A stretch of DNA of 64,000 nt from Pseudoalteromonas sp. N1230-9 (GTDB lineage Bacteria > Pseudomonadota > Gammaproteobacteria > Enterobacterales > Alteromonadaceae): the NCBI RefSeq assembly GCF_032716425.1, contig NZ_CP090419.1:1800001-1864000 (forward strand), given 5' to 3'. The notes beneath the pieces are model-generated. The model had not been told where the DNA came from, did no database searches, and was given only the letters and a program-made list of their open reading frames with translations. Below are positions 1-19,140 of the stretch, piece after piece; the first letter of the stretch is position 1, and each line of letters starts with the position of its first letter. The position numbers were made by a program, and so were the translations under genes.

Positions 1-1242
1 GCCGCTTTCACTGCAGTGAAGGTAAGTGTGGCCTTTATAATTTTGTTTATTTTATTCAGCTACTTTAGATTGCACGAAGCTTTTCCTTTTTTAATGCCTT
101 TTAAAATTCCTAAGTTACTCGCGCTTGCATCCTTATTGGGAATAGTTTGGCATCTGTTTATCTCACAAAAATTAAAGCCACACTGGCATACTAATCATTT
201 GATATTTTTTGCTTGGTTTATTTGGCTGACTGTTTGTGTTTTTAGTGCCTCTAATCGGGGTTTAGCGATGGAGTACTGGTCAGGAGTACTGACAAAAGTA
301 CTTATTATGGTATTTGCAATCTCCTGGTGGATGAGCACATTAAAGCATTTTAATGTGGTTAGAATTGGCATCATGATCTCAGGAGCCGCTATTGCCTTGG
401 TTGCCCTGAGTAACAAAATGAATGGAATTGGTCTAGTTGAAGGAACCCGCGTCACTATTTCTCGTGAGCTGCGTTCACAGTTAGGTGACCCAAACGATTT
501 ATCGCTGGTAATGATGTTCCCTGTGTCTTTTTTAGCAGCCGAAGTGTTTGATTCAAATGCGCATAAACTAAGACGTATCATAGCCTTTATCTGTTTGATC
601 ACGGCAATTAGTGGCGTAGTTGCGACGCAAAGTCGAGGTGGTTTACTCGGCATTGCTGCTGTACTTAGTTTTTTCATTTATCAAAAAGTTAAAAACCCAA
701 TTGTTGTTGGCTGTATTGGTGCGGTAGGCATGTTAGCTATGGTTGCATTTGCGGGTATCGCAGACAGGCAAAGTGGTGGCTCACACGAAGGGGGAGTAGA
801 TGAATCAGCAATGGGCCGTATCTACGCATGGCAAGCGGCAATCAATATGGCGATACATAATCCATTAACTGGGGTTGGGGTTAATAACTTTGTCGTTAAC
901 TACTATTTTTATAGCCCACATTGGGATGGCAAGAATCATGCAGTACACAGTACATGGTTTCAGGTGTTAGGTGAAACAGGCATCGTAGGAATATGCATTT
1001 TTGTACTCGTGATTGCCTGTATTTATCGCACCTTAAACCGTGTTTTTTTAATCAATAAACAGATTAATGACAAACAAATAGATGTAAATGCGAAAGCGCT
1101 AAAGGGCGGCCTAATTGGCTTTATGGTATCAGGAACCTTTTTAACTCAGGCATTTACATGGCCTATTTATATCATTCTTGCTTTAACTATTGCCTTAGAA
1201 AAGCTTGTAATTGATAAACAAAGGGAGACTTCACATGAGTGA
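1..1242 (+). CDS. sypL: O-antigen ligase/polymerase-like membrane protein (SypL-like), 5' end outside window
   Basis: Polytopic inner-membrane protein of about 410 residues with roughly ten hydrophobic segments. Near its C-terminal third is the periplasmic-loop signature of the Wzy/WaaL family: GVGVNNF, then an H-S-T-W-F...GETG stretch. Such proteins polymerise or ligate undecaprenyl-linked sugar repeats at the periplasmic face. The frame is open to base 1. The first possible start, GTG at 16, has no ribosome-binding site, so the true start is probably just upstream of the window. The 3' end overlaps the next gene by 8 bases. The order ligase, acetyltransferase, GT, Wzz, GT, GT2 and sugar transferase is that of sypL-R in Vibrio fischeri. 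The family call is firm; the gene name rests on synteny. Confidence 0.8.
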
Positions 1243-1945
1243 ACAAATTAAACACTGGCTTAAATCAAGCGACAGTGCAATTGCAAAATCGCTTTTTCAA
1301 GTTGCAAAATCGATTCGCAATCCGCAAATGTGGGTGATCCCAGGTATTCATTCATTAATATATAAACTGCATTTATTGGTTAAAACTTTAGTAAGTGAGC
1401 TAGGGCGCATTTTTTATTACACACCACTATTTAAAAGCCAAATTAAGGGCTCAAAAGCAAATTTATACCTGTATTCTGGCATGCCGCAAATATTAGGAAA
1501 ACTTGAAATTAGCTGTAATGACAACACGCGAATTAGTGGCATCAGCACTTTTTGTGGGCGTAGTCATGGTAATTACCCCCCCAAACTGATTATTGGTAGT
1601 AATGTGGATATTGGTTGGCAAAATGCGTTTTCTGTTGGTCGTAAAATTGTACTAGAAGATGATGTGCGTTTAGCGGGCAGGGTATTTTTAGCTGGCTTTC
1701 CTGGTCACCCTCTAAACTCTGAACGTCGTGCTCTTGGTGAGCCTGATGACGATTCACAAGTTGGCGATATCATTATCAAACAAGGCGCTTGGATAGGCAC
1801 CGGCGCAACTGTGCTTGCAGGTGTAACAATAGGCGAGGGTGCCATAGTTGCTGCAAGTGCTGTAGTTACTAAAGATGTGCCAGCAAATACTATTGTTGCT
1901 GGTAATCCAGCAAAAATTGTTAAACAGCTGGAGGATTCGCTATGA
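1235..1945 (+). CDS. sypM: Left-handed beta-helix acyltransferase (SypM-like)
   Basis: Predicted O-acetyltransferase of 236 residues that would decorate the polysaccharide. The C-terminal half carries hexapeptide repeats of the LbetaH fold (runs such as [30 protein letters not shown]) and ends with the typical [11 protein letters not shown] segment. I chose ATG 1235 over the in-frame TTG at 1211 because an AGGGAG Shine-Dalgarno lies 7 bases upstream of 1235. It is translationally coupled on both sides: 8-base overlap with sypL-like, ATGA overlap with the next GT. The acceptor sugar cannot be read from the sequence. Confidence 0.82.
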
Positions 1946-3078
1946 AGTTTATTGTATTCGGCGAAGACTGGCAAAGCCACCCAAGTAGTACACAGCACCT
2001 ATTTAAACAACTAGCAAAACAACATCAGGTTATTTGGATTAACTCGATTGGTATGCGAAAACCAACACTTCGCTTGATTGATGTGAAACGAGTTTTTAAT
2101 AAATTAAAAAGCCTTTTTTTATCTAAGCGCAATAGGCCAAAAGCTGAAACAACGAATACTAGCCAAAACATTAATTTAACAGCACACACATTAGCGTTTT
2201 TACCTTGGCACGATAACGTTATAGTAAGGCTATTTAATAAATGGATTTTTAATCAAAAAGGTTTCATAGATGATGAGCCAATTGTTTATTGGCTTAGTGT
2301 GCCTACTGCAATTAGTCTAATTTCACCGCGAGTGCAGGATAAAGTCATTTATTACTGTGGAGATGACTTCTCGGCACTTGCGGGTGTTGATCATAAAATG
2401 GTCGCGCCTTTTGAAAGTGACCTTATCGCAAAATCAGACACCATCTATGTTGTGAGTGAGTTTCTTGCCAACAAAATGCCAAAGTCTAAAGTTAAAATGC
2501 TTTCTCACGGCGTCGATTTAGAACTTTTTACCACGCAAACCACAAAAGCCGTTGAACTAGAGCGAATAAGCAAACCTATTATTGGTTTTTACGGCTCCTT
2601 GAATGCTTGGCTCGATAAAGCCTTACTGTTGAGACTAGCCAAAGAAAGGCCTGAGTATCAATTAGTATTGATAGGCCACCTTGTCGAAGACTTCTCTGCT
2701 CTCCTCAAGTTAGACAATGTAACCCATATACCGACTGTAGATCATCATCGCTTAGCTTCATTTTCTCAGCATTGGCAGGTATCTATCTTACCATTTGTTG
2801 ACAATGAGCAGATCAGAGCCTGTGATCCACTTAAATTAAAAGAATACATTGCCACAGGCACACCTATTGTGACAACACGCTTTGCTGCGGTTAACCCATA
2901 CCAAGAAACCATATTGATAGCAGACAACCACCAGGGATTTATTGAGCGTGTAGACTATGCTGTTAGTCTAAGTAAATCAAACAACTTGAATTGGCGAGCA
3001 AATCAATCTCAGCAGGCAAGTGATCATAGCTGGCAAGCAAAAGCCAAGTTAGTCTGTAAACAACTTAGGTTTTGCTAA
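1942..3078 (+). CDS. sypN: GT-B glycosyltransferase (SypN-like)
   Basis: A 378-residue cytoplasmic glycosyltransferase of the GT1/GT4 superfamily. The C-terminal nucleotide-sugar half is recognisable from IIGFYGSL near residue 213 and a late [17 protein letters not shown] motif, the usual acceptor/donor loop of these enzymes. A classic E-x7-E pair is not evident. It starts at the ATGA overlap with the acetyltransferase and is followed by a terminator-like hairpin, so it probably closes the first polysaccharide transcript. In syp order it occupies the sypN position. Sugar specificity is unknown. Confidence 0.75.
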
Positions 3079-3100
3079 ACAAGCCTTTCTACCCAAAGCT

Positions 3101-3133: not shown

Positions 3134-3138
3134 CATTT

Positions 3139-3155
3139 TGGCTCACTAACTGCAA
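3139..3155 (+). promoter_or_regulatory. Candidate sigma-54 (RpoN) promoter for sypO-P-QR
   Basis: TGGCTC-N5-CTGCA keeps the invariant GG at 3140-3141 and GC at 3152-3153 with the required 10-base spacing. Predicted start of transcription is near 3165. SypG, encoded in this locus, is a sigma-54 activator, which gives the site a plausible partner. The match is by eye. Confidence 0.55.
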
Positions 3156-3214: not shown

Positions 3215-3247
3215 CAATTTCGCAAAATGCAAAGCAAAAGGTAAAGT

Positions 3248-4723
3248 ATGTTAGTTAAAGAGCAGATCAAACGGTTAATTTATTTAGGGCTTTATGCGCT
3301 TTACACGCGTATTAAGCTCTTTATTATTCCGTTTTGCATTGTGCCAATCGTCGTCATTGCACTTGGTTTATCTGCGCAAAAACAATATACCAATCACGCA
3401 ACCATCTTAATTGAAGAGTCAGCACTACTTAATCCTTACTTAGATGATCTGTCTTTCTCGTTTCAGCTTTCTGATCGTATGGCAGCACTGCGTACCTTAG
3501 TTATCAGCCGTAAGGTACTTATTGCTGTAGCAAAAGAAACCCAATTAATAGCTGAAGATGCTACGCCAAAACAAGTTGAAGAAATTCATCAAAAACTATC
3601 TAAAGCGTTATCACTTTCGTTAATTGGCGATGAGCTGGTCCGCATTAACTTTATTTGGCATGACCAATCACAAATGAAGCCAGTGCTTGAAAAGGTGGTA
3701 GAAAAATTTATTGAACGTTTATTAGCACCAACAAAGGCGTCACTTGATACTTCTGAGCAGTTTTTCTTTAAGCAGCTGGATAGTTTACGCGAAGAACTTG
3801 AGTTATCTGAAGAAGCACTGGCTGATTTTAAAACCAAAAACAGTAACACCTTACCCGATGTTTTACATAGCAATCGTCAAACCTTCGACAGCTTACTAAG
3901 TGAAAAACAACAAAAGCTGATTGCTCTTTCAGGGGCTAAAGCAAAACTGAATGCCTTAGTGAGTAAAGTTGGACAAGCCAATCCAATTTTAGGCAATTTA
4001 GAAGAGAAGATAATTCGTACTGAATCTGAATTAAGTCTTTTGAGAACACGCTATACCGATAAACATAGCAAGATTATCGAGAAAAAACGCACACTGGCAA
4101 ACTTAAAAAGTCGCCAACAGGCGCTGTTAGCATCTAGTGAAGAGCTAGACACAACGAATCTTGATCAGTTATGGCAAATGGTGAATACGCTTCCGTCCGG
4201 TGATGGTAAAGAGAACAGCGTTTTAGTTTCACAACTTCTTGCGCTTGAAGAGGCCCGTAATAATTTACTTCAGCAAGAGCAAGAATTTGCAATGCTCGAA
4301 GAGCAAGTGCAGCTTGTCAGTGAACGTCTGTTAGTAACCAGTGATGTAGAAAGACAATTACGTAAACTAGAGCGTGATTACGATGTTAAACAGTCACTTT
4401 ATAAAGACATGCTTAGCCGTTACGAAATGGCCAGAGTCACAGGCAAATTAGTTAAATACGAAGGACCTGACAAAGTTAAAACTATCGAACGAGCTTATAG
4501 CCCAACACAACCTATCAATACCTCAATGCTGATGACCGTTATCGTTGGCATTGTGCTTGGGATTTTCACAGGTAGTGCAAGCGTATTTGTTGCTGCACTT
4601 TGTGATAGTCACTTAAAAGATATTAAAACCATAGAAAAACTTACCAGCGCAGAGGTGGTAACAGTACTTCCTATCGTCAATGCCGAAACTAACTTCGGTA
4701 ATATTGAAGGAGATAAATCATGA
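3248..4723 (+). CDS. sypO: Polysaccharide co-polymerase, Wzz/GumC type (SypO-like)
   Basis: A 491-residue chain-length determinant of the inner membrane. Transmembrane helix 1 spans about residues 23-43 and helix 2 about 427-452, framing a long periplasmic region rich in heptad coiled coil (about 170-400). The proline-rich PTQPINTS stretch just before helix 2 is typical of the family. The cytoplasmic tail is only 39 residues and has no kinase domain, so any tyrosine-kinase-like partner would be the separate SypD-like protein. An AAGG ribosome-binding site precedes ATG 3248. It overlaps the next gene by ATGA. It follows a candidate sigma-54 promoter and occupies the sypO position. Confidence 0.85.
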   Translation: MLVKEQIKRLIYLGLYALYTRIKLFIIPFCIVPIVVIALGLSAQKQYTNHATILIEESALLNPYLDDLSFSFQLSDRMAALRTLVISRKVLIAVAKETQLIAEDATPKQVEEIHQKLSKALSLSLIGDELVRINFIWHDQSQMKPVLEKVVEKFIERLLAPTKASLDTSEQFFFKQLDSLREELELSEEALADFKTKNSNTLPDVLHSNRQTFDSLLSEKQQKLIALSGAKAKLNALVSKVGQANPILGNLEEKIIRTESELSLLRTRYTDKHSKIIEKKRTLANLKSRQQALLASSEELDTTNLDQLWQMVNTLPSGDGKENSVLVSQLLALEEARNNLLQQEQEFAMLEEQVQLVSERLLVTSDVERQLRKLERDYDVKQSLYKDMLSRYEMARVTGKLVKYEGPDKVKTIERAYSPTQPINTSMLMTVIVGIVLGIFTGSASVFVAALCDSHLKDIKTIEKLTSAEVVTVLPIVNAETNFGNIEGDKS

Positions 4724-5799
4724 ATGTCATGCACTTAGTTCAACACCTACAAGTAGGTGGCCTAGAAAAAATGGCAATTACTTTGCTCAAAAACAGTCAA
4801 TTTAGTAGCTCGAGTATTATTGTTTCGCTCGAAGGAGACAGACACTCTGCTTTTGAACAGTGGCCAGAATTAGAAGAATTTAGCCATCGTGTTATTTGCT
4901 TAAACAAAAAACCAGGCGTGAGTATTTCTGTTATCGCAAAGATAAAGGCATTAATAAAAGAGCATGATATCGATATTATTCACAGTCATCATGTTGGCCC
5001 TGTTATTTATGCGGGCTTAGCGTGCGCATTGTCGGGTGATTCAGTTCGTCACATATCAACAATTCATGATGCCTGGTATTTAAACAATGTTAAACAATGT
5101 ACTTTCACTAAATTACTTGATTCGCTAACTAACATTTATTGGGTTGCAGATGCACACATTGTTGCCGATGAGTTTAGAGCTAAAACAGCAATCATTCCTG
5201 AGCGCACAATTTTAAATGGTATAGATTGCGATAATTTTGTTGCAATTAACCAATCAACCGCCAGAAATCAGCTCAATTTACCCCACAAAGTTAAGCTAGT
5301 TGGCTGTGCTGCAAGGTTAATTGCGGGAAAAGGACACAAAGATCTTATTCATGCATTGCATTACTTACCTGAAGTATACCATATGGTTTTTGCTGGAGAT
5401 GGCGATCAAAAAGTTATTTTAATGAACTTGGTACGTAATTTAGGGCTTAACAACCGTGTGCACTTTTTAGGCAACGTTCACGATATGCGAGCCTTTTATT
5501 CAAGCATTGATGTTATGTGTTTGTATTCACAACGTGAAGGTTTGCCATTATCGATTATTGAAGCCATGGCATGTGGTATTCCAGTTGTAGCGTCTGATGT
5601 AGGTGGTATTCATGAAGTTCTCACAGATAACGAAGGTGAACTAGTGTCTTTGAACGAGTTTAACAAGCTTGCACCGGCTATTTTGAGAACATGTAAACTG
5701 CCACATGGTCTTTGCATTCGTCATCATGCTATTGCAGTCGCAGATGCAAAAACCATGAGTAGTAAATACGACAATTTATATTCTGCATTAGCAGTGTAG
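4720..5799 (+). CDS. sypP: GT4-family glycosyltransferase (SypP-like)
   Basis: A 359-residue retaining glycosyltransferase. The N-terminal acceptor domain contains MHLVQHLQVGGLEKM and a DIIHSHHVGP segment. The C-terminal donor domain has GCAARLIAGKGHKDLI and the E-x7-E motif EGLPLSIIEAMACG with glutamates at residues 273 and 281. All are hallmarks of GT4 enzymes that build bacterial exopolysaccharide. The start codon overlaps the stop of the Wzz-like gene, and the next gene follows after 9 bases. The transferred sugar cannot be deduced. Confidence 0.85.
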   Translation: MNVMHLVQHLQVGGLEKMAITLLKNSQFSSSSIIVSLEGDRHSAFEQWPELEEFSHRVICLNKKPGVSISVIAKIKALIKEHDIDIIHSHHVGPVIYAGLACALSGDSVRHISTIHDAWYLNNVKQCTFTKLLDSLTNIYWVADAHIVADEFRAKTAIIPERTILNGIDCDNFVAINQSTARNQLNLPHKVKLVGCAARLIAGKGHKDLIHALHYLPEVYHMVFAGDGDQKVILMNLVRNLGLNNRVHFLGNVHDMRAFYSSIDVMCLYSQREGLPLSIIEAMACGIPVVASDVGGIHEVLTDNEGELVSLNEFNKLAPAILRTCKLPHGLCIRHHAIAVADAKTMSSKYDNLYSALAV

Positions 5800-5808
5800 G
5801 AGCCAACC

Positions 5809-7620
5809 ATGACTATTTTTACTACATTATTTATCATTTTAATGTGTATTGTTGCGTATCATCATGTTGGCTACCCATTACTGCTAAAGTGTGTTGCAGG
5901 CAAAAAGCAAAAGCACAACAAGCAAGCCGTTTTTGATGACAACTATAAACCGAATATTGCTGTTTTGATGTGTGCGTACAATGAACAACAGCATATTGCA
6001 GAAAAACTTTATAACTTAGCATCATTAGTTTATGACACACATCATTATTCTATTCATGCTTATTTTGATGGTTGCACCGATAAAAGCTATCAACAAGCTC
6101 TTAAAGCACAGCAGGTATTACATAAACAAGGCGTGCAGTGTTACTTTCATCATCGTGATGAAAACCAAGGGAAAGTACAAGGATTAAATACCTTGATGGG
6201 GATGGCAAAATATCACAATGATATTTTACTGTTCACTGATGTTAGTGCTTTATTGAGTATAGATGCATTAAACAAAGTGGCTAAGCAATTTAGTGATCCG
6301 CAAGTGGCAATTTCGACAGGTGTTTACACCTTAGATGAAAATGCACAAGATGCGCAAAAAGCCTACTGGCAGTACCAAAACCAAGTGAAAAAATCTGAGT
6401 CAAACCTTGGCGCTGTGATTGGCGTACCAGGAGCTATGTTTGCCATGCGTGCTGAGTATGCAAATGAATTAGAGAAAAACACCATTAACGACGACTTCGT
6501 GCTCTCAATGAAAGCTTTAAGCAAAGGGGGTAAAGCCGTTGTCGATGAAGATGTTGTCATTTACGAACGTGAATGCGACGAACAAAGCGAAGATTATAAA
6601 CGCAGAGTACGTGTTGGCGCTGGTAACTGGCAGCAGATTAAAGCACTGCTTTTATTACTTAATCCGCGCTTAGGCTGGACGTGTCTAAATTTCTTTTCGC
6701 ATAAAGTCCTACGTGGAGTGATGCCAGTTATTTTAGCGGGTATTTATGTCTGTGTCTTTTTAGAAGCCCTCGTGTCGCAATCGTTGTGGTCTGAACTTAT
6801 CGCAACAGCAATTTTATCACTTCATACCGTGCAAGCGATTAAAACGCTATTCGAGATTAAAAAACATATTCCTATCGTCGATAAAGTGAATTACATCTTA
6901 AATAGCTACTTTTTAGCACTTTGGGGGATCATCCGTTACGAGCAAGGTTATTTTAATAACCCATGGCAACGGGTGAAAACGGCAAGTAAAAAACCAACAA
7001 AATCGATTATTAAAATCATTAAGCGAAGCTTAGATATTACAGGTGCCTTATTTGCGCTAAGTCTTGTTTGGCCTGTTTGTTTAATTGCAGCGCTGGCTAT
7101 AAAGCTAACATCTAAAGGTCCTATCATCTTTAAGCAACTTAGAGTGGGTGAAAGCTCAGATGACTTCGTTGAGTTATTTTATGTTTACAAGTTTCGCTCT
7201 ATGGTGGTTGATGCTGAGTCACGTTCTGGCGCTGTATGGGCTAGTAAAGATGACCCAAGAATAACGGCAGTAGGGCGCTTTATGCGTAAAACACGAATTG
7301 ACGAACTTCCGCAATTAATTAATGTGCTTAAAGGCGAGATGTCTCTAATTGGTCCAAGACCAGAGCGCCCTGTATTTTATGGCAAATTAGAAAAAGACAT
7401 CCCTTATTTTTGCCAGCGTACTTACGGTGTTAAACCAGGTATTTCTGGTCTTGCCCAAGTGATGAACGGCTATGACGAAACTATAGACGATGCTCGCAGT
7501 AAAATTGGCTGGGATTACGCCTATTCACTGAGTATGTCTTCACCGCGTGCTTGGGTGAAACTTGAGTTTTCAATTGTGATTAAAACATTACAAGTTGTCT
7601 TTACGGGCAAAGGGCAGTAA
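5809..7620 (+). CDS. sypQR: Fused GT2 glycosyltransferase and undecaprenyl-phosphate sugar transferase (SypQ-SypR fusion)
   Basis: A 603-residue two-enzyme protein. After an N-terminal membrane helix, residues about 46-270 are a GT2 domain (AVLMCAYNEQ, AYFDGCTD, LLFTDVSA, NDDFVLSMKA, then the basic RRVRVGAGNWQ stretch). Three or so membrane segments follow. From about residue 397 to the end is a bacterial sugar transferase: membrane anchor, PIIFKQLRVGE, FYVYKFRSM, DELPQLINVLKGEMSLIGPRP, YGVKPGISGLAQV. That domain starts repeat-unit assembly by loading a sugar phosphate onto undecaprenyl phosphate. In V. fischeri these are separate neighbours, sypQ and sypR. Here no stop or frameshift separates them. 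The symbol is a descriptive label. Confidence 0.85.
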   Translation: MTIFTTLFIILMCIVAYHHVGYPLLLKCVAGKKQKHNKQAVFDDNYKPNIAVLMCAYNEQQHIAEKLYNLASLVYDTHHYSIHAYFDGCTDKSYQQALKAQQVLHKQGVQCYFHHRDENQGKVQGLNTLMGMAKYHNDILLFTDVSALLSIDALNKVAKQFSDPQVAISTGVYTLDENAQDAQKAYWQYQNQVKKSESNLGAVIGVPGAMFAMRAEYANELEKNTINDDFVLSMKALSKGGKAVVDEDVVIYERECDEQSEDYKRRVRVGAGNWQQIKALLLLLNPRLGWTCLNFFSHKVLRGVMPVILAGIYVCVFLEALVSQSLWSELIATAILSLHTVQAIKTLFEIKKHIPIVDKVNYILNSYFLALWGIIRYEQGYFNNPWQRVKTASKKPTKSIIKIIKRSLDITGALFALSLVWPVCLIAALAIKLTSKGPIIFKQLRVGESSDDFVELFYVYKFRSMVVDAESRSGAVWASKDDPRITAVGRFMRKTRIDELPQLINVLKGEMSLIGPRPERPVFYGKLEKDIPYFCQRTYGVKPGISGLAQVMNGYDETIDDARSKIGWDYAYSLSMSSPRAWVKLEFSIVIKTLQVVFTGKGQ

Positions 7621-7658: not shown

Positions 7659-7703
7659 TTGCATAATGCAAATTAACAGCAAAAAGTTAATTGCATTATG
7701 CAT
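7659..7703. promoter_or_regulatory. Long inverted repeat upstream of sypA, candidate activator (SypG) enhancer
   Basis: TTGCATAATGCAAATTAAC (7659-7677) and GTTAATTGCATTATGCAT (7686-7703) are near-perfect inverted copies separated by 8 bases. Each arm contains the palindrome TGCATnATGCA. The pair lies about 70-110 bases upstream of the start expected from the sigma-54 promoter at 7745, the usual place for an enhancer-binding protein site. Binding by SypG is inferred. Confidence 0.5.
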
Positions 7704-7744: not shown

Positions 7745-7760
7745 TGGCATTTTAGTTGTA
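7745..7760 (+). promoter_or_regulatory. Candidate sigma-54 promoter of the sypABCDE operon
   Basis: TGGCAT-N5-TTGTA matches the -24/-12 consensus with GG-N10-G spacing. The only departure at key positions is T instead of C at -12. Transcription would start near 7771, 30 bases before sypA. A strong inverted repeat sits upstream. Confidence 0.55.
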
Positions 7761-7800
7761 CTAGTTACTATGACTAACCAATTTAACTAAGGTGAAGATC

Positions 7801-8121
7801 ATGGCTAACAACACATCATTTTCTAACGATACCAAACTAATTTCACTACCTAGTGACTTTTCTGGTCTAGCCGTCGATGGCTTTAAAGATCAGTTTGAAG
7901 AAGTTGCGCATGGCAAACAGCAAAGTGTGGTACTCGATTTTAGCTCTACCACATTTATTGATTCATCTGGAATTGGTGCCATGGTGTTCCTGTACAAACG
8001 CATCGAGAAAAAAGGACAAAAACTATCACTGCTTAATGTGTCTGGGCAACCACACAAATTAATGAGTCTATTAAGAGTTGATAAGACGATTCCATTTATC
8101 GAACAAGCTGATATCGCGTGA
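7801..8121 (+). CDS. sypA: STAS-domain anti-anti-sigma-like regulator SypA
   Basis: A 106-residue single STAS domain, the fold of SpoIIAA/RsbV. The phosphorylatable serine motif FIDSSGIGAM is intact. Counting from ATG 7801, the second serine is residue 56, the position I recall as the phospho-switch of V. fischeri SypA, which supports this start over GTG 7792. AAGGTGA lies 5 bases upstream. In the known system unphosphorylated SypA promotes biofilm, and SypE phosphorylates and dephosphorylates it. The gene opens the second transcript of the locus, with sypB 8 bases downstream. Confidence 0.9.
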   Translation: MANNTSFSNDTKLISLPSDFSGLAVDGFKDQFEEVAHGKQQSVVLDFSSTTFIDSSGIGAMVFLYKRIEKKGQKLSLLNVSGQPHKLMSLLRVDKTIPFIEQADIA

Positions 8122-8987: not shown

Positions 8988-8988
8988 C

Positions 8989-11055: not shown

Positions 11056-11750
11056 AACTAATACCAGCGCAATACCAAGAACTTGAAGCCGTGTGTAACG
11101 AAATAGATAACAGCAAAGCCCGTTGTATCTGCTTTATTTCGTTAACCGGCAACGAAGGCTCTACATCACTTTGTGCTAGTGTTGCACAGCGCTTAAGTTT
11201 GCAAGCAGCCAAAGTACTTATAATTGACTTAAATCCGTTAAACCCATTTAAGTTTGATGAACCAAAAAAACCAGAGTCTTGGTGCTTTAGTGATATTTCG
11301 TGTCAGCTGAATATTATCAATACTGAGCAGGTAGACCTGCTCACCATGGCGCACCTTAAAGAGCTTGAATCGGTGAAAAATAAAAGCGTACTAAATGATG
11401 CCATAGAGCGTATAAAGCAAGAATATGACTATATATTTTTAGATATGAGCCCTGCTCTTAAATGTAATCGCGGTAACGTACCGCTGCATGCACTTAGTTT
11501 ATGTACCGAACTGACATTTTTAACGGTATCGCTTGGTTATAACGACGAAGAAGCTTTATGTCACGGCATGGCAAATCTAGAGCACGCAGGCGTTAATAAC
11601 GTAAAAATTGTTGTTGCGCAGCATCAGTTTGCTCCATTGGGTAGCCGCATCGTGAAAACGCTCAAAGCGTTTCAACCAAAATGGCCTAAACTCACAGAGT
11701 ACTTATTAAACAAAGTTATAAAACAGCGCTGGTTATTTTTACCTTATTGA
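11052..11750 (+). CDS. sypD: CpsD/Wzc-like P-loop protein with degenerate Walker A, SypD
   Basis: A 232-residue member of the BY-kinase/MinD-like ATPase family, expected to pair with the Wzz-like SypO. Walker A-prime (VLIIDLNP, near residue 55) and Walker B (YIFLDMSPAL) are clear. The Walker A loop, residues 30-39 (SLTGNEGSTS), lacks the lysine found in the canonical GEGKST. The C-terminus is not tyrosine-rich: it ends QRWLFLPY with no Tyr cluster. Catalytic kinase activity is therefore doubtful, and it may act as a scaffold or regulator. Placement directly after sypC and before sypE matches V. fischeri. Confidence 0.8.
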   Translation: MKLIPAQYQELEAVCNEIDNSKARCICFISLTGNEGSTSLCASVAQRLSLQAAKVLIIDLNPLNPFKFDEPKKPESWCFSDISCQLNIINTEQVDLLTMAHLKELESVKNKSVLNDAIERIKQEYDYIFLDMSPALKCNRGNVPLHALSLCTELTFLTVSLGYNDEEALCHGMANLEHAGVNNVKIVVAQHQFAPLGSRIVKTLKAFQPKWPKLTEYLLNKVIKQRWLFLPY

Positions 11751-11758: not shown

Positions 11759-13216
11759 ATGGACTGCTTATACCAAAAATCATTTAGTTTAGATTGGCCT
11801 ACAGTCAGTGAGATTCGCCATATTTTAAAACATGTTTTGACGGCGATCAGTGTTAAAAATCAAGATATTGATGCTGCAGGGTTAGTAGCAACCGAATACC
11901 TTACCAATCTGCTACGCCATAGCCAAGAAACCTCAATGCATGTGCAGTTTACTATGCATAAACTGCCCGATAAACAGCTTTTAATTGAATTTAAAGACAG
12001 CATGCCAAGCTATGATTTATTTAATCAACAAGCATCAGGCTGGCAATTAGACAGTGGCGAGTTAGTTGAAGGGGGCATGGGGGTTGCGCTCATCAAGCAT
12101 TACTTTCCAAATGCTTGTTATAAAACTGTTGGCCAGCAGAATACGTTCTCTTTTTGTTTAACCAATATAGATAAACGACCCACACTTATTTACATAGACG
12201 ATGATAAAGCACAACTCGCTTTGCTGAATGCTTATTTATCTGAGCATTTTCAAGTTATTTGCTGTGAAGACAGTGAATCGGGGTGGCAAGAAATTCTCAC
12301 CTCTGGGGCAACAATTTTATTGCTTGATCATAAACTTAAAAATGGAACCAGTGAGCCATTACTTAAAAAACTCAACCAATCTAACCTAAAAACTAATTTA
12401 TCTGTGGTTATGCTGACAGGTGATGACAGTGAAGAGCTAATAAAGCGCATAAACCTATTGGGGGTTGATGATTATTTAGTAAAGCCAGTTAGCAAAACAC
12501 GTTTACTCCAAAGCATTGAGCGGATTGTGCATCGTTTTTCAGCACTAAAGTATTTAATTAATGAAGAACGTATGCAAACCAAACAAAAAATAGGCGAGTT
12601 TAATGCCTATAATTTTGGCTCAATCATCAGTCAAAATGGCGGGGATTTTTGTATGTACCCCCACCAGCAGCAAGCGCCTGTGATTATTGGCGATATGATG
12701 GGGCACGGTATAACAGCACTAAAAGAAAGCTTTGCCATCAAGGGATTTTTAAGTGGCTGTTTAGCGACAGAAATCCCGATACAAAACGTTTTAACCACCT
12801 TGAATCAAGCCCTGTATGAACAACGGTTATGTAAAACTAGTCTAGTCACTTTACTAATAAGTTTTATTGAAAATAACACACTTCACTGGTTTAACGCAGG
12901 TCATCCTGCGCCTTGTGTGATAACCAAAAATGGTAAATTGATCCAGCTAAGCGGTACTGATCCCTTACTGGGCCTTAGTGATGATCATGTTTATCAACAT
13001 TATAGTTATGACGTAAATGACGTTGAACACATTTTATTATTCACCGATGGTTGGCTTGATAATCAGAAATTAAGCGATGTTGATCAAATAACTGCCAAGT
13101 TAAGTGACGATAATTTGCAAAGTGAAGAGTTTGCTTATGCACTTTGGCAGGCAAGCCAAGTTGAGTTATCTGCTGAAATCGACGATGCCTCGTTAATTGT
13201 GATCAATAAACACTAA
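11759..13216 (+). CDS. sypE: Response regulator with RsbW-like kinase and PP2C phosphatase domains, SypE
   Basis: A 485-residue protein with the unusual three-part build of SypE. Residues about 10-135 are an RsbW-type serine-kinase ATPase (N-box asparagine at 50; GGMGVALI motif). Residues about 141-262 are a receiver domain with phospho-acceptor Asp190 (LLLDHKL). Residues about 280-484 are a SpoIIE/PP2C phosphatase (IIGDMMGHG with Asp312, FNAGHPAP, FTDGW, IDDASLI). From memory, the V. fischeri equivalents of Asn50 and Asp190 are Asn52 and Asp192, a constant offset of two. It should phosphorylate or dephosphorylate SypA depending on its own receiver. All key residues look intact. Confidence 0.9.
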   Translation: MDCLYQKSFSLDWPTVSEIRHILKHVLTAISVKNQDIDAAGLVATEYLTNLLRHSQETSMHVQFTMHKLPDKQLLIEFKDSMPSYDLFNQQASGWQLDSGELVEGGMGVALIKHYFPNACYKTVGQQNTFSFCLTNIDKRPTLIYIDDDKAQLALLNAYLSEHFQVICCEDSESGWQEILTSGATILLLDHKLKNGTSEPLLKKLNQSNLKTNLSVVMLTGDDSEELIKRINLLGVDDYLVKPVSKTRLLQSIERIVHRFSALKYLINEERMQTKQKIGEFNAYNFGSIISQNGGDFCMYPHQQQAPVIIGDMMGHGITALKESFAIKGFLSGCLATEIPIQNVLTTLNQALYEQRLCKTSLVTLLISFIENNTLHWFNAGHPAPCVITKNGKLIQLSGTDPLLGLSDDHVYQHYSYDVNDVEHILLFTDGWLDNQKLSDVDQITAKLSDDNLQSEEFAYALWQASQVELSAEIDDASLIVINKH

Positions 13217-13319: not shown

Positions 13320-14774
13320 ATGCCACCTAAAATACTCATTGTTGAAGATACAGAATCGCTAGCGCTGATGTACCAATCTTATTTGATCCCAACTGGGGTC
13401 GAAACATGCATTGCCTACAATGGTGAACAGGCCGTCGTTGCTCTACAGGAATTTGAGCCTGATTTAGTGATTTTAGATGTTATGCTGCCAGATATGAACG
13501 GGCTAGATATCTTATCCTCTTTAGACCCAGACACAGCTCCACAAGTGATTGTTTTAACAGGGCATGCCACTAAAGAAATGGCAATCAAAGCCATTAAACT
13601 CGGTGCCAGTGACTTTCTAGAAAAACCAATTGAAGCCGATCGTTTTCGCATTACAGTAAACAACGCATTAAAACTTAAAGATTTAAAACAAACAGTCAAA
13701 AGCTATCAAACCACTTACGAGAACGGTAAATACTACGATTTGATCGGTAGCTCATCAGAAATGCAATCTGTTTACCAAATCATAAAATCAGCATCCGTAA
13801 GTAAAGCCACTGTATTTATCACTGGTGAAAGTGGCACTGGTAAAGAGCTCTGTGCCCGTGCGGTACATTTAGCATCACCACGTGCTAACAAACCGTTTGT
13901 AGCCCTTAACTGTGCAGCTATACCCAAAGATTTAATTGAAAGTGAAATATTCGGTCATTTAAAAGGAGCGTTCACTGGCGCGATAGCCAATCGCGAAGGG
14001 GCGGCAGGCCAAGCTGACGGCGGTACGTTGTTTTTAGATGAACTATGTGAAATGGACATCAATCTGCAAAGTAAGCTACTGCGCTTTATTCAAACCGGTT
14101 GTTATCAGCAAGTCGGTAGCGAAAAAGAAGTGAAAGCGGATGTGCGCTTTGTGTGTGCCACCAATCGCGACCCTTTATTAGAAGTGCAGGAAGGCCGTTT
14201 TCGTGAAGACTTATATTATCGCCTACATGTTATCCCTATTGCCTTACCGCCTTTAAATCAGCGTGGCAAAGATGTAATCGAAATTGCCGATGCTCTTTTT
14301 AAAAAAATAAGTAAAGAAGAAGGCCGCGCATACAAAGGCATGTCAGAAGGCGTTAAAAATCTATTTTTGAGCTATGGCTGGCCTGGTAATGTTCGCCAAT
14401 TAGAAAACACCATCCGTAACATTCTCGTTTTGCATGATGAAGCTTACATTGAAGCGAGTATGATCCCAGCACTACCAAACGCACAAAATCAATCACAACC
14501 AGTCGCAGCAGCGGTTAATGCTATAACCCCAGAGGTGATGCCGTCACCAAGCTTTGCTGCATCATCAACTGAAATCACTCCTGTCATCAGCAAGGTAGCA
14601 ACAGTATTTTCTCAAGCTGATATTGAACCGCTTTGGTTGGTAGAAAAACGTTATATTGAGCAAGCCATTGATGCTTGTGATAACAATATTCCAAAAGCTG
14701 CAGCTCTTTTGGATGTTAGCCCATCAACCATTTATCGTAAAATTAAAAGCTGGGAAGAGATGCAAGTAAGCTAG
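13320..14774 (+). CDS. sypG: Sigma-54-dependent response regulator SypG
   Basis: A 484-residue NtrC-type activator. The receiver domain has phospho-acceptor Asp53 (VILDVMLP). The AAA+ domain has Walker A GESGTGKE at 169-176 and the sigma-54 contact loop GAFTGA at 216-221. A Fis-type helix-turn-helix covers the last ~40 residues. In the syp system it activates the syp promoters, and two sigma-54-like promoters are present in this window. A 103-base gap separates it from sypE, and no sypF is there. AAGGAAG precedes ATG 13320. Its last 32 bases overlap the convergent glycosyltransferase gene. Confidence 0.9.
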   Translation: MPPKILIVEDTESLALMYQSYLIPTGVETCIAYNGEQAVVALQEFEPDLVILDVMLPDMNGLDILSSLDPDTAPQVIVLTGHATKEMAIKAIKLGASDFLEKPIEADRFRITVNNALKLKDLKQTVKSYQTTYENGKYYDLIGSSSEMQSVYQIIKSASVSKATVFITGESGTGKELCARAVHLASPRANKPFVALNCAAIPKDLIESEIFGHLKGAFTGAIANREGAAGQADGGTLFLDELCEMDINLQSKLLRFIQTGCYQQVGSEKEVKADVRFVCATNRDPLLEVQEGRFREDLYYRLHVIPIALPPLNQRGKDVIEIADALFKKISKEEGRAYKGMSEGVKNLFLSYGWPGNVRQLENTIRNILVLHDEAYIEASMIPALPNAQNQSQPVAAAVNAITPEVMPSPSFAASSTEITPVISKVATVFSQADIEPLWLVEKRYIEQAIDACDNNIPKAAALLDVSPSTIYRKIKSWEEMQVS

Positions 14775-15777
14775 AGTTATAAACTCTATCTAACTGTTTA
14801 AATTGCTGTTCCCCAGAAAAACGTTGTTTAACAAGTCGTTGTGCACTGCCTAGCATGTAGCTTCTTTGATCAACGCTTAACATAAGTACGTTGTTTAACT
14901 GCTTTTGTAAACCACCGCTTGTAATTTCAGTCATCATTAACCCATTTGAGAGGTGATTAATTATCTGTGGTAACTGACCAACAGGCGATGCAATAACTAG
15001 CACCCCTTGTGCCATTGCTTCTAATGCCACCATTGGCAGACCTTCAGCCCGAGAACAGATCACTAATACATCAAGCTGTTGCCATATTTGTTGTTGTTCA
15101 CACTGGCCATGATAAGTCACAGCGGATAAATCAAGGTTATTGACCATAGGGCCATCACCAAACATGTGAAAGTTTAAGTTTGCTGTGTTGAATCGCTTGG
15201 CAGTTTCAATAAAAATATCAGGGCCTTTTTCGTGGGATAAACGCCCAACAAAGCCGATATTTAACTCATCATTATTTTTTAGATCTAAAACTTTAGTAGG
15301 TTCATTTACTGGAATAAAATTTTCAAGTAATTCAGCATTGTAAAGCTCTTCAGTCAGTTTGCTAGAAACAGCAAAATTGCGTGAAAAGTAACTTAGCAGT
15401 TTGTCGAGTTTATTGTATAAATAAACCTTCCCCGTGCCAGCTTCTCCAGCATGATAGGTTGAAATACAAGGGCGGTTTTGCCAGCGACACACTAACTTGC
15501 CCATGATACTTGCCTTGTACCCATGGGTATGTAGTAAAGCTGAACGAGGAAACATTTTTAGTATTTCGTTCAAGCTTTTTAAATTTCCGCCAGCAAAACC
15601 GAAAGTGATATTTGCATTTTCTAAGCGCTTATATAATTCACGGTTATTATGATCTTGATAAAATAGTACCGAGCTCATAATATTGTATCGTTCTAAGAGC
15701 TTACTCATGGCAATCAAATGGCTTTCGATACCACCAATTAAGCTTGAATCTACAAATAAAATAACACTATATTTCAT
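14743..15777 (-). CDS. GT4-family glycosyltransferase, convergent with sypG
   Basis: A 344-residue GT-B enzyme. The N-terminus has VDSSLIGGIESHL and a LLHTHGYKAS motif. The donor domain has NIGFVGRLSHEKGPDI and an E-x7-E motif, EGLPMVALEAMAQG. It is probably one of the syp glycosyltransferases (sypH, I or J in V. fischeri), but I cannot say which. I chose ATG 15777 over an upstream in-frame start because TTGGAGTGA sits just before it. It is divergent from the Hpt gene with only 20 bases between start codons, and its 3' end overlaps sypG by 32 bases. Confidence 0.82.
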   Translation of the reverse strand: MKYSVILFVDSSLIGGIESHLIAMSKLLERYNIMSSVLFYQDHNNRELYKRLENANITFGFAGGNLKSLNEILKMFPRSALLHTHGYKASIMGKLVCRWQNRPCISTYHAGEAGTGKVYLYNKLDKLLSYFSRNFAVSSKLTEELYNAELLENFIPVNEPTKVLDLKNNDELNIGFVGRLSHEKGPDIFIETAKRFNTANLNFHMFGDGPMVNNLDLSAVTYHGQCEQQQIWQQLDVLVICSRAEGLPMVALEAMAQGVLVIASPVGQLPQIINHLSNGLMMTEITSGGLQKQLNNVLMLSVDQRSYMLGSAQRLVKQRFSGEQQFKQLDRVYNSSLLASLPSF

Positions 15778-15797: not shown

Positions 15798-16130
15798 ATG
15801 ATAGATACTGCGACCTACGCGCAATTACAACAGGATGTTGGTGACGACCTAGCAAAACAGCTTTTGCAGGTATATATTACTGAGTCCCGCCAAATCGTTG
15901 CTGATCTTGCTGATGCAACGAAACAGTCTGAAATCGAAATAAATGCCCATAGTTTAAAAAGCAGTAGCCGTAGCTACGGGGCATTAGCTGTAGGCGGCCT
16001 TGCAGAACAAATCGAGCAAAAAGCGAAGGCATCACAATATGATGACGAATTACAAAGCTTTATTGCCTTACTGCAAGACCAATTTGCACAAACCCTAACT
16101 CACGCGCAAAGCTTGATTGCTGCTGACTAG
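15798..16130 (+). CDS. Stand-alone histidine phosphotransfer (Hpt) protein
   Basis: A 110-residue, all-helical Hpt domain with the phospho-accepting His51 in INAHSLKSSSRSYGA. Such proteins shuttle phosphate from a hybrid kinase receiver to a response regulator. In V. fischeri the Hpt domain of SypF does this for SypE and SypG. Here sypF is absent and this separate protein lies one gene from a hybrid kinase that lacks Hpt, so it is the likely missing relay step. An AAGGTAAG site precedes ATG 15798. Its last 36 bases overlap the convergent YvcK-like gene. Confidence 0.85.
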   Translation: MIDTATYAQLQQDVGDDLAKQLLQVYITESRQIVADLADATKQSEIEINAHSLKSSSRSYGALAVGGLAEQIEQKAKASQYDDELQSFIALLQDQFAQTLTHAQSLIAAD

Positions 16131-17000
16131 TTGCTCAGCTTCTAGTCTCAACGGCATTTTTAATATTTCGCCAAATACATTACTCAACTGCTCAATGTCG
16201 TGCTGTTGGTTTGGCGATTTAACAACATCGTCAAAGTGCGACACAATTTCACTAAGCGCATCTAAAGAGATGCTTAAGTCACAAAAGCTGTAACCGAGCA
16301 TGCCTTCGAGCCAATCAACCGGTTTCATATCAAGCGATTTAATTACACTGGCTTCTTTTGCAATATTTTCGATAAACACGCGGCATGCTGATGTTTTTTG
16401 CACCGCTTTAGCTATGTCTTCAACTAACATAGCGGGCATTACACTGGTAATTAAGCTACCAGGGCCAATTATTAGCATATCGGCGTTTTCAATAGCTTGA
16501 ACCACTCCAGGCGCAGCATTTACGTCTTGTGAGAGAGTTACATAGTCAGGAAGCTCTTTTTGTGAATCAATTTCGCATTCACCAAATACTTTGATACCTG
16601 ATGACATCACAGCCAATAAATCGGTCGGCTCGTCTGACATAGGAAGAATTGTTTCTGAATTACCCAGCATAGCATTGAACCAAGCTACAGCTTGAGTTGC
16701 TGAGTTAGTTTGCTCAGTTAAGCTTAATAAGGCTAAATTACCAAGGCTGTGACCATTTAGTTCACCACCATCAAAACGGTGGTGAAAAACTTGATGGATT
16801 AATGAGTCACTATCAGCTAATTGCAAACAACAACGTCTAATATCACCAAGGGCAACGACATCTTGGCTTTGACGTAATTTACCTGTGCTGCCGCCGTTGT
16901 CTGTGGTTGCAACTATGGCAGTTAAATCAGCGCAATGCGGTCTAATTGCACTTAACATATGGGATAAACCGTGTCCGCCGCCTATGCATACTATTTTCAT
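16095..17000 (-). CDS. yvcK: YvcK/YbhK (CofD-like) family protein
   Basis: A 301-residue member of the YvcK/CofD superfamily, close in length to E. coli YbhK. It has the nucleotide-binding start CIGGGHGLSHML, the family signature ATTDNGGSTGKLR, NGHSLGNLALL and LIIGPGSLITSVMP. In Gram-positive bacteria YvcK binds UDP-sugars and affects cell-wall precursor flow; the role in gammaproteobacteria is unsettled. A link to nucleotide-sugar supply for the neighbouring polysaccharide is speculative. ATG 17000 is preferred to GTG 17003: a GAGG site lies 8 bases upstream. Its end overlaps the Hpt gene, and it is divergent from the hybrid kinase. Confidence 0.8.
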   Translation of the reverse strand: MKIVCIGGGHGLSHMLSAIRPHCADLTAIVATTDNGGSTGKLRQSQDVVALGDIRRCCLQLADSDSLIHQVFHHRFDGGELNGHSLGNLALLSLTEQTNSATQAVAWFNAMLGNSETILPMSDEPTDLLAVMSSGIKVFGECEIDSQKELPDYVTLSQDVNAAPGVVQAIENADMLIIGPGSLITSVMPAMLVEDIAKAVQKTSACRVFIENIAKEASVIKSLDMKPVDWLEGMLGYSFCDLSISLDALSEIVSHFDDVVKSPNQQHDIEQLSNVFGEILKMPLRLEAEQLVSSNQALRVS

Positions 17001-17169
17001 CACTCATACCTCACTGAACTTTATTAATAATTGAAAGCAGCTGCTATACCAAGTTTTCAGTTTCTATAAGATGATGAAATTTAATAAATTAATTTTGTTT
17101 TTTTATGGCTAATCTGAAAACTGTTTTCTATATTTGCAATATGCGATGCATTATTAACTAGGAATGGCC

Positions 17170-19140
17170 ATGGCGGAGTTAAACTTAGAGCAATTACAAA
17201 TTGAGTTAAAAGCATTTCATGGCATAAATGATAGCCACACTCTCAAAGCTCAACTTGAAAAAGTGCTTCTGCCATATTTTTCGTTTAAAGAGTTTTGCTT
17301 AATAAACTTTGAAGACTCAAAAGCTTCCCTCGAAATGCGCACAATAAAGTACATTGAATTTGATGAAGCTTTATTAAAATCCAAATTACAACACACACAG
17401 TCACAGTGGTTGCTTAATGAAGATAACTCGCTGTTTTATAGTAATGAATTTGTCAACAACCTAATTTTTCATGTTGAGATATCTGAGCATACAACTCAGT
17501 GCATGGTATTTTTTGACATAAAACAGCAAGTTAAATTTAATGAAAAATCACAAGCTGGCATCATGATTTTATTGCAACAAGTAGCGGTTCAACTAGCTGC
17601 GCAAACTCGGCTTAATCGGCAAAAGTTTCACTCAACCTCCTTATTAACGCGACTTGGCGAGTTATCTGAGTTATTTAGAGACTTTGCGAGTGAATGGTTT
17701 TGGCGTACTAATAAAGAAGGGCTATTTATTAATGTTTTAACTACAGAGAGTCACAGTAACTTATACAAACGCCACTTTTTACATAAAAATTTTGCTTCCA
17801 TCATCACTGAACAAGAACAAAGCCAGTTAAAAAAATGGTCTCATTTTAAGCACTTAATCGCTGATCATGCTGAGTTTTTAGATTTTGAATTTGAAGTTAA
17901 CTCGTCTCCACCTGCATGGGTGTCGTTTAGTGGTAAACCACAATTTGATTCAAGTGGAAAATTTAGGGGGTATTTGGGCATAGCTAAAGACATCACTGTA
18001 AGTAAAGATCGTGAACAAGCACTGCAACAAGCCAAAGAAAAGGCTGAAGAAGCAAGCCTTGCTAAATCTCAATTTCTAACTGTAATGTCGCATGAGATAA
18101 GAACCCCAATGAACGCAATCGTTGGTATGCTTGAATTACTTGCTGATTCCGAACTAAGTGATAAACAAAATCGCTGGCTTGATTATGCTAATTCGAGCGC
18201 AGACCTGTTGCTAGATTTAATTAGTGATGTACTGGATTTTTCTAAAATTGAAAGCGGCTCGATGGAGCTCGATATAAAAGCCACTGACGTAAATGCACTC
18301 GTTAAAAATATAACTTCACAATTTCAAGAAACAACACAGAATTCAAAAGTGGTGTTTTCAACTGAGTTAAAAGAAGGGTTACCAGATAAGATCAATATAG
18401 ATGGAGTGCGAGTGGGTCAAATATTATTTAATATTTTAGACAACGCAATCAAGTTTACAGAAATTGGCACAGTAAATTTTATTGCTGATTTTAGCGATAC
18501 ACATCTATTGTTTGAAGTAGCTGATACAGGCCAAGGTATACCATCCTCTCAAATTGAGTCTATTTATGATGCTTTTAAGCAACACGACTATGGAGTAAAC
18601 AGACAAATCGAAGGTATTGGCTTAGGCCTTAGTATCACCAAAAGTCTTGTTGATTTAATGAAAGGGGAAATTAAAGTCACAAGTAAAGTTAATATTGGTA
18701 CTAAATTTACTATCTGTATTCCCTATACAATAGTGACAAATGATAAACAAACTGTAGAAAATGACCAACCGCTTGAACCAATGACAATTCTCGTCACTGA
18801 AGACAATAAAACTAACCAAGTCTTGATTAAAGCTTTTCTAGAGAAGTTAAATCATCACGTAACGCTTGCAGACAATGGTCAACAAGCTATCGATAAAATT
18901 CAACTTAAGCATTACGATCTAGTGCTTATGGATATGATGATGCCAGTGATGGATGGTATAACAGCAACGAAGTATATTCGTAATGAGCTAAACATGGCGC
19001 TGCCAATCCTTGCACTAACAGCTAATGCTTCATACCAAGATAAAGCAACATGTATTGAAGCAGGTATGAACAAAGTGCTGACAAAACCAATTCGTTTTCA
19101 CGATCTAAATCGCGCCTTACGGATTTTATTCAGCCAATGA
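17170..19140 (+). CDS. Cytoplasmic hybrid histidine kinase (HK-REC), candidate SypF equivalent
   Basis: A 656-residue soluble sensor kinase. Residues about 1-150 resemble a GAF-like sensory domain and 165-285 a PAS domain (WRTNKEGLF...YLGIAKDIT). HisKA follows with His308 (MSHEIRTPMN), then HATPase (N box NILDNAIKF, GQGIPSSQ, GIGLGLSI) and a receiver with Asp588 (LVLMDMMMPVMDG). No transmembrane helix and no Hpt domain are visible. ATG 17170 is preferred to 17164 because the AGGA site is 6 bases upstream of it. As nearest kinase to the Hpt gene and syp regulators, it probably feeds that relay. The signal is unknown. Confidence 0.85.
   Translation: MAELNLEQLQIELKAFHGINDSHTLKAQLEKVLLPYFSFKEFCLINFEDSKASLEMRTIKYIEFDEALLKSKLQHTQSQWLLNEDNSLFYSNEFVNNLIFHVEISEHTTQCMVFFDIKQQVKFNEKSQAGIMILLQQVAVQLAAQTRLNRQKFHSTSLLTRLGELSELFRDFASEWFWRTNKEGLFINVLTTESHSNLYKRHFLHKNFASIITEQEQSQLKKWSHFKHLIADHAEFLDFEFEVNSSPPAWVSFSGKPQFDSSGKFRGYLGIAKDITVSKDREQALQQAKEKAEEASLAKSQFLTVMSHEIRTPMNAIVGMLELLADSELSDKQNRWLDYANSSADLLLDLISDVLDFSKIESGSMELDIKATDVNALVKNITSQFQETTQNSKVVFSTELKEGLPDKINIDGVRVGQILFNILDNAIKFTEIGTVNFIADFSDTHLLFEVADTGQGIPSSQIESIYDAFKQHDYGVNRQIEGIGLGLSITKSLVDLMKGEIKVTSKVNIGTKFTICIPYTIVTNDKQTVENDQPLEPMTILVTEDNKTNQVLIKAFLEKLNHHVTLADNGQQAIDKIQLKHYDLVLMDMMMPVMDGITATKYIRNELNMALPILALTANASYQDKATCIEAGMNKVLTKPIRFHDLNRALRILFSQ

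Follow-up and report, generated by a model that had tools for sequence, protein, structure and literature searches.

Organization of the syp-type locus

The stretch of DNA analysed here, referred to as the window, comprises 64,000 nucleotides of the 4.63 Mb, two-contig genome of Pseudoalteromonas sp. N1230-9. It contains a syp-type biofilm-polysaccharide locus which, judged from its activator gene sypG and from the predicted operators, is probably under the direct control of a LuxO-type regulator. Genes were assigned from open reading frame (ORF) calls and from Pfam and NCBIfam scans of the proteins encoded in the window and upstream of it. The presence of the syp locus is confirmed: sypL-M-N-O-P-QR is followed by sypA-B-C-D-E-G, in agreement with the original prediction from the sequence, except that sypQ and sypR, expected as separate genes, are fused into one ORF.

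The synthesis genes and the export and regulatory genes up to sypG all lie on the forward strand. The sypL-like gene (1..1242; PF04932) begins outside the window, 123 bp before its first base, and encodes a Wzy_C polymerase/ligase; its product and Vibrionaceae SypL are reciprocal best hits, with 44% identity. The gene is followed by those for a sypM-like hexapeptide acyltransferase (Hexapep; 1235..1945, with the ATG at 1235 as a likelier start than the TTG at 1211 of the listed ORF), a sypN-like glycosyltransferase (GT1; 1942..3078), a sypO-like chain-length determinant (GNVR; 3248..4723) and a sypP-like glycosyltransferase (GT1; 4720..5799). The fused sypQ-sypR gene (5809..7620) combines a GT2 domain with a Bac_transf undecaprenyl-phosphate sugar transferase domain.

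The export and regulatory part starts with sypA (7804..8121; alternative GTG start at 7792), encoding a STAS protein with phosphorylatable Ser55/Ser56, and sypB (8130..8987), encoding an OmpA-family lipoprotein-like protein. The gene sypC (8968..11055) encodes an outer-membrane export protein with SLBB/Poly_export domains, including six SLBB stretches, and sypD (11052..11750) a BY-kinase-like ATPase of the AAA_31 family with 23% identity to a Vibrionaceae SypD. The SypE protein (11759..13216) consists of an RsbW-type kinase, a REC and a PP2C domain (HATPase-REC-SpoIIE), with Asn50 and Asp190, and SypG (13320..14774) is a sigma-54 activator with the REC-AAA-HTH_8 architecture and a conserved Asp53. 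All residues that had been quoted in support of the regulatory assignments, Ser56 in SypA (treated in PMC4517449), Asn50 and Asp190 in SypE and Asp53 in SypG, are present. The usual lysine appears to be missing from the ATP-binding loop of the window SypD, a trait shared with some further SypD proteins (GEGVTS-like); in genome G234 the loop reads GEGKST.

Twenty-five query proteins from the window and its upstream region were compared with a Vibrionaceae locus in the V. fischeri gene order (G259). Fifteen of these are reciprocal best hits, namely A, B, C, D, E, G, H, L, M, N, O, P, Q, R and a stand-alone Hpt protein, a result in line with the reciprocal matches to Syp proteins that had been anticipated. 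No reciprocal best hit in G259 was found for flippase K, two upstream glycosyltransferases, a REC-only protein, a YvcK-type protein, a hybrid kinase and four flanking proteins; flippase K shows weak matches (81–112 bits) in five other Vibrionaceae loci. Domains and reciprocal best hits together place the syp/scv core, consisting of SypA (STAS), SypC, SypE, SypG and the L–R synthesis genes, in a single locus. Assignment of SypA, SypE and SypG to an RsbV/RsbU-type stress system was rejected, because these proteins sit in a full polysaccharide locus as reciprocal best hits of Syp proteins.

A survey of 108 Pseudoalteromonas genomes identified 35 with a SypE match at an E-value of 1e-20; the match in G406 covers residues 1–134 only, and seven matches contain one stop codon that was read through. 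The sypQ-sypR fusion is a single ORF in all 35 loci. The window sypA is 66–100% identical to sypA of 11 Pseudoalteromonas loci, with 100% identity in P. shioyasakiensis among others.

Relationship of the activator to LuxO and SypG

The window SypG shows 55–59% identity to LuxO of 32 loci that were read in a uvrB-luxO-luxU-yvcK setting, against 45–53% identity to SypG of 13 Vibrionaceae syp loci, and its best relative of known structure is LuxO (PDB entry 5EP0). Its score with the NCBIfam LuxO model is 646 bits, where 800 are needed. The next match to SypG in its own genome scores 266 bits (39% identity), versus 1071 for SypG itself, and further matches show 35–43% identity, several of them over shorter stretches; no second SypG/LuxO-type protein stands out.

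In a first tree of 70 activator proteins (68 and two outgroup rows), the groups of which were named after the tree had been seen, 14 Pseudoalteromonas SypG proteins form one clade (support 100/100) that lies outside a SypG clade of 22 members (98/97). The grouping of Pseudoalteromonas with LuxO is not resolved in this tree. Forcing it costs 1.3 log units (approximately unbiased (AU) test, p 0.41), and forcing Pseudoalteromonas with SypG costs 10.1 log units (AU p 0.023). In a second tree, calculated with a mixture model after 12 rows had been dropped (five outgroup or long rows and seven for thinning; two long rows stayed), Pseudoalteromonas joins LuxO at 88/84 and the SypG clade without Pseudoalteromonas is found at 97/95. 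An affinity of the Pseudoalteromonas activators to LuxO is favoured by these results, without being decisively established. The protein originally assigned as SypG has Asp53 and stands in a syp context; in both trees it falls outside the SypG clade, again not decisively.

The N-I/V-P motif of the recognition helix is kept in the seven Pseudoalteromonas and six LuxO rows shown, and its proline is changed to leucine or isoleucine in six of the seven Vibrionaceae SypG rows shown. LuxO is held in the off state by a linker glycine, and the G145E substitution raises the activity of V. cholerae LuxO; two Vibrio SypG proteins with Asn or Asp at this position have been flagged as likely constitutive (PMC10162802). 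In all 35 Pseudoalteromonas loci this glycine is replaced, by Asp in 28, by Glu in four and by Gln in three; the residue in the window protein is Asp140. The position is a glycine in 52 of 54 other rows, and the alignment with 5EP0 agrees. From the replacement we infer that autoinhibition is reduced in the Pseudoalteromonas SypG, with the phosphorylation site Asp53 kept in the window protein.

Candidate operators and promoter elements

The published binding sites are TTGCAWWWTGCAA for LuxO and TTCTCANNNTGMDWN for SypG (PMC10162802). Pattern scans of the window reveal an exact LuxO-type enhancer palindrome 5′ of sypA (7659..7671), followed 32 bp further on by a second one with one mismatch (7691..7703) and then by a sigma-54-like TGGCA...TTG element (7745..7759), in which, in an alignment of 16 loci, TGGCA is kept and the -12 part reads TTGT instead of TTGC. 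Another sigma-54-like -24/-12 element (3139..3153), recognized by eye as TGG...TGC in 14 of 15 aligned genus loci, precedes sypO, with a one-mismatch LuxO-type palindrome (3220..3232; pattern scan and alignment) between this element and the gene. A further palindrome with one mismatch lies before the kinase gene (17134..17146). All these elements are on the forward strand. By sequence alone, LuxO-type TTGCAWWWTGCAA sites are thus accompanied by sigma-54-like elements in the locus.

Across the genus, a LuxO-type palindrome with at most one mismatch is present within 200 bp 5′ of sypA in all 35 loci, exact in 26, and two such sites are present in 27. Of all 1,024 possible half-sites TTGCA scores best before the sypA genes of the genus; the runner-up reaches 11 of 35. 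Exact SypG-type sites (TTCTCANNNTGM) before sypA are found in none of the 35 loci. One-mismatch versions occur in seven, as TTCGCA overlapping the LuxO-type sites; since this motif is loose at one mismatch, with matches in 5 of 20 upstream regions outside the Vibrionaceae, exact matches alone were counted. Eighteen of 19 loci also have a LuxO-type site ahead of the upstream glycosyltransferase gene, and in the 14 aligned ones a GG...TTGC element comes after this site. The window genome contains four exact LuxO palindromes: one before sypA, one before the upstream glycosyltransferase gene and two inside ORFs.

The association extends to other families, where a LuxO-type site lies within 250 bp 5′ of sypA in 10 of 11 loci (next half-site, 2 of 11), and in 11 of 13 when the scan is widened to 320 bp and two more loci. 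Vibrionaceae loci with SypG show the reverse, with no LuxO-type site and an exact SypG-type site in 10 of 13; G515 was left out of this count, its stretch containing no sypA. None of the 20 loci outside the Vibrionaceae has an exact SypG-type site. Some SypG-clade loci outside the Vibrionaceae also carry LuxO-type sites, and neither type was found in G012 (family f12), G374 (family f6) and seven Shewanella-like loci, a label given on account of nap and moa neighbours. Because the loci are related, these counts are not independent.

YvcK, Hpt and hybrid kinase genes next to sypG

On the 3′ side, sypG is followed by an inverted sypH-like glycosyltransferase gene (14743..15777, reverse strand; the listed ORF runs to 15855, with its first ATG at 15777), the reciprocal best hit of the glycosyltransferase after Vibrionaceae sypG. 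Next come a stand-alone Hpt phosphotransfer protein with His51 (15798..16130, forward), identified by a domain scan and a residue check, a YvcK/GlmR-type gene (16095..17003, reverse) and a hybrid histidine kinase gene (17164..19140, forward). The kinase has His310 and a REC domain with Asp590, and no Hpt domain; hydropathy indicates no membrane span. A single-protein SypF, combining hybrid kinase and Hpt, is absent from the locus, and SypF is represented, if at all, by the separately encoded Hpt protein and Hpt-less kinase. In the published scv loci sypF is absent from 38 Vibrio species (PMC8941931). The window Hpt protein scores 35.8 bits with the NCBIfam LuxU model, which needs 140.

The YvcK-type protein belongs to the CofD family, with 263.7 bits for TIGR01826 (cutoff 196) and PDB entries 2ppv and 2hzb as solved relatives. 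Proteins of the YvcK/GlmR family bind uridine diphosphate N-acetylglucosamine (UDP-GlcNAc). At an E-value of 1e-40, YvcK is present in 37 of the 108 Pseudoalteromonas genomes, including all 35 with SypE and only two of the 73 others (Fisher 2e-26, uncorrected for kinship). The Pseudoalteromonas proteins make up a separate clade (100/100), and 24 other YvcK rows a second group (90/89); the origin of the Pseudoalteromonas proteins is unsure because of long branches and a weak base (48/10). That the gene is an unchanged chromosomal copy was not retained as an explanation, since G234 has two YvcK genes and the Pseudoalteromonas copies form a clade of their own.

Similar gene neighbourhoods are found elsewhere. 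The run uvrB-luxO-luxU-yvcK, with yvcK inverted, is present at the 32 Vibrionaceae LuxO loci and, followed by moaA, in four loci of a second set of five; G209, the remaining one, has neither luxO nor luxU. The genes sypA-E-Hpt adjoin yvcK in Shewanella-like genomes, and moaA is nearby in the single genome that was read gene by gene. Locus G374 (f6/g45) resembles the window in its order A-B-C-(unassigned)-G-H(inverted)-Hpt-(unassigned)-YvcK(inverted), and has no SypE. Synteny of this kind links the Syp and Lux relays.

Gene order in Pseudoalteromonas and other families

The A-to-R gene order of V. fischeri is not found in the window, where the order is K-L-M-N-O-P-QR-A-B-C-D-E-G-H(inverted). 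This does not exclude the locus from the syp/scv type, because order and content vary among the syp/scv loci on file (PMC8941931). The rearrangement that had been predicted is real, and its supposed peculiarity disappears on comparison. With homologues of the query genes scored only, O-P-Q-R-A-B-C-D-E-G is the order in all 35 SypE-carrying Pseudoalteromonas loci, and consequently not a product of chance; an order special to the window genome was rejected on the same grounds and because the order recurs elsewhere. Eleven named Pseudoalteromonas loci show the same order with GT-K-L-M-N ahead, GT being a glycosyltransferase. In 18 of the 34 other genus loci the upstream stretch was inspected, and 17 have GT-K-L-M there; G406 is rearranged. 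The inverted H and Hpt genes lie 3′ of sypG in 33 of 35 loci, and in G432 and G434 the block is found about 34 kb away.

In the window genome itself, the upstream glycosyltransferase gene and flippase gene K likewise precede sypL, and a GT2 gene and the REC-only gene run divergently there. Of sypH, I, J and K, which had been expected upstream, K is present there, together with a glycosyltransferase gene; a one-by-one match to H, I and J was not achieved. In the Vibrionaceae genome G099, a GT2 gene before sypA, adjoining a K-like flippase gene, is 45% identical to the divergent upstream GT2 gene. In two Pseudoalteromonas loci (G489 and G435) sypN and sypO are separated by roughly 3 kb of additional sequence, which contains an exact LuxO-type palindrome of its own. 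Two genomes without a SypE match look like stages of locus loss: G244 retains YvcK and Hpt alone within the 20 kb inspected, and G456 contains broken remnants (L, G, GT and YvcK fragments) together with Hpt and kinase genes.

Outside the genus, 19 of 25 loci from a sample of the order were annotated. Gene R precedes A in four of four loci of family f11, with a further gene between them, in two of two loci of f12, in G234, from the family of the window organism, where a YvcK gene lies between R and A, and in six Vibrionaceae loci with SypE (L260–L265). Loci start at different genes (K, O or A), and neighbours keep one cyclic order; exceptions are f25, which is partly inverted, and the Shewanella-like genomes, in which one part of the split locus, A-(B)-C-D-E-Hpt, adjoins yvcK and the other, GT-K-SypG/LuxO-like, lies at a different site (read in two genomes). 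The window order, like most orders observed, is a rotation of this shared cyclic order. Such rotations would be producible by tandem duplication with loss, or by excision as a circle. In the Shewanella-like genome G001, Mu-like phage genes lie directly 5′ of sypA. Rfam and tRNA scans of the window gave no match and no tRNA, and a plasmid DNA search gave nothing useful.

Proposed mode of regulation

The combined observations suggest, with good probability, a Wzx/Wzy-type exopolysaccharide (syp) locus that is driven directly by a LuxO-type activator and gated at two levels. Going by their families, QR would start the lipid-linked unit, N, P, the upstream glycosyltransferases and H would extend it and M would acylate it, after which K would flip the unit, L would polymerize it and O, C, B and D would export the product. 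At the first level, SypG is predicted to bind the TTGCAWWWTGCAA palindromes and to fire sigma-54 promoters of the upstream GT-K-L-M-N genes, sypO, sypA and probably the kinase gene. The soluble hybrid kinase would signal to SypG by way of the stand-alone Hpt protein, and SypG may be partly freed from phosphorylation by loss of the autoinhibitory linker glycine. At the second level, after transcription, SypA would be controlled through phosphorylation by SypE, as it is in V. fischeri. A coupling of the pathway to the supply of UDP-GlcNAc by the YvcK-type protein is conceivable, and is the weakest step.

Several observations weigh against control by a LuxO-type activator. In the first tree, a union of LuxO and SypG without Pseudoalteromonas is not rejected (12.6 log units, p 0.10), and neither is Pseudoalteromonas with SypG under the mixture model (AU p 0.075). 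A LuxO-type site is missing from 2 of the 13 other loci outside the Vibrionaceae and the Shewanella-like genomes, and from all seven Shewanella-like loci. Exact palindromes are as frequent in the window genome as a reversed control pattern (four and four per strand), and the one-mismatch pattern is not enriched in the window (four found, 2.2 expected); because of these counts the operator case rests on position and on conservation among related loci. The -12 part of the sypA element deviates from the consensus. At sypO, the palindrome of the aligned genus loci lies downstream of the sigma-54-like promoter element; it may act from this position, or as a brake. In six Vibrionaceae genomes with LuxO only (one LuxO/SypG match per genome at an E-value of 1e-110; LuxO by context in five, the match in G502 not having been read in context), the predicted LuxO-type site before sypA is found once, at 312 bp. 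This comparison says little, because sypA closely follows R there, apparently inside an operon, yet it lent the LuxO-type reading no support. Finally, the window Hpt protein is nearer to Vibrionaceae syp Hpt (49 bits) than to Vibrio LuxU (25 bits).

The tree result under the mixture model leaves some room for an ordinary syp locus, with an unremarkable, fast-evolving SypG orthologue, operators that are an ancestral detail, and nothing beyond published scv/syp diversity. The published survey indeed already takes in Pseudoalteromonas and the Q-R fusion, and the SypG proteins of the window and of a Vibrionaceae locus are reciprocal best hits, the latter locus being without a competing LuxO. We nevertheless regard this explanation as unlikely, in view of the position outside the SypG clade in both trees, the higher identity to LuxO and the uniform presence of LuxO-type and absence of exact SypG-type sites before the sypA genes of the genus. 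Short palindromes such as those with TTGCA half-sites could also serve a protein other than SypG. This is very improbable, given that they match the LuxO site described in PMC10162802 and accompany sigma-54-like elements in a locus with a LuxO-type activator, whereas Vibrionaceae SypG loci carry the SypG motif instead.

More serious, though still the less probable view, is that YvcK, Hpt and kinase are leftover neighbours of an ancestral luxU-yvcK site that play no part in polysaccharide synthesis. The conserved uvrB-luxO-luxU-yvcK run of the Vibrionaceae, the Shewanella-like sypA-E-Hpt genes next to yvcK and the retention of YvcK and Hpt in G244 would fit such a view. It accounts poorly for the presence of YvcK in all SypE genomes of the genus and in only two others, for the block that stays together even 34 kb away (G432 and G434), and for the kinase gene having its own LuxO-type site.

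If a LuxO-type activator controls it, the locus may be close to the condition that preceded the split between LuxO and SypG. A tentative scenario, which we consider doubtful as a whole, is that LuxO-LuxU and SypG-Hpt both derive from one relay that first activated polysaccharide synthesis through TTGCAWWWTGCAA. Pseudoalteromonas would have kept the single-regulator state, partly released from phosphorylation; in the Vibrionaceae one copy would have stayed at uvrB-yvcK as LuxO-LuxU, and SypG would have changed its recognition helix and its operators (TTCTCA). If true, this change would lessen cross-talk between the two regulators.

Comparison with known systems

As a gene cluster alone the locus is ordinary: a known kind with a genus-typical order, in which LuxO-like control is the less expected part. 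Loci of the scv/syp type have been described for 148 species of 28 genera, including Pseudoalteromonas with its Q-R fusion (Liu et al. 2022, PMC8941931), so that the regulatory set outside Vibrio, correctly predicted, is not new. The loci outside Vibrio in that work share with the present study the genus and the scvN-scvO (Q-R) fusion; its accessible text holds no comparison of operators, YvcK/Hpt or LuxO outside Vibrio and no account of gene order as a rotation. In the open-licence PMC literature, as far as its text was accessible, no paper was found that joins LuxO-type sites or YvcK to syp outside the Vibrionaceae, nor a description of a SypG nearer to LuxO, of palindromes before sypA, of the linker-glycine replacement or of the company of Hpt and YvcK.

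The syp locus of V. fischeri, like rbd and scv of other Vibrio species, has the same export, polymerization and SypA/SypE/SypG set. Compared with it, the window locus is rotated in order, with Q and R fused, SypF split, H inverted and YvcK added, and carries LuxO-type sites in place of TTCTCANNNTGM. The Vibrionaceae LuxO-LuxU relay shares the activator architecture, the 13-bp site and a similar activator–Hpt–yvcK(inverted) neighbourhood. Unlike in that relay, the sites in the window precede polysaccharide operons, the linker glycine is replaced, the activator and Hpt genes are separated by an inverted glycosyltransferase gene, no uvrB was observed next to the locus, and there is no Rfam match in the window, to which the search for qrr RNAs was confined. 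With the YvcK/GlmR family the locus shares TIGR01826, the Pseudoalteromonas copies forming their own clade linked to syp.

In V. fischeri, cross-talk between SypG and LuxO occurs at qrr1, and input from LuxU can reach SypG (PMC10162802, PMC12369376) and the syp biofilm (PMC12369376). The origin of this cross-talk becomes testable in a genus that combines one such regulator with LuxO-type sites directly before its polysaccharide operons and with an altered autoinhibitory linker. In its linker change, Pseudoalteromonas offers a naturally occurring parallel to the published G145E substitution of V. cholerae, and LuxO-like control of a polysaccharide locus may illuminate how quorum-sensing and biofilm switches diverged.

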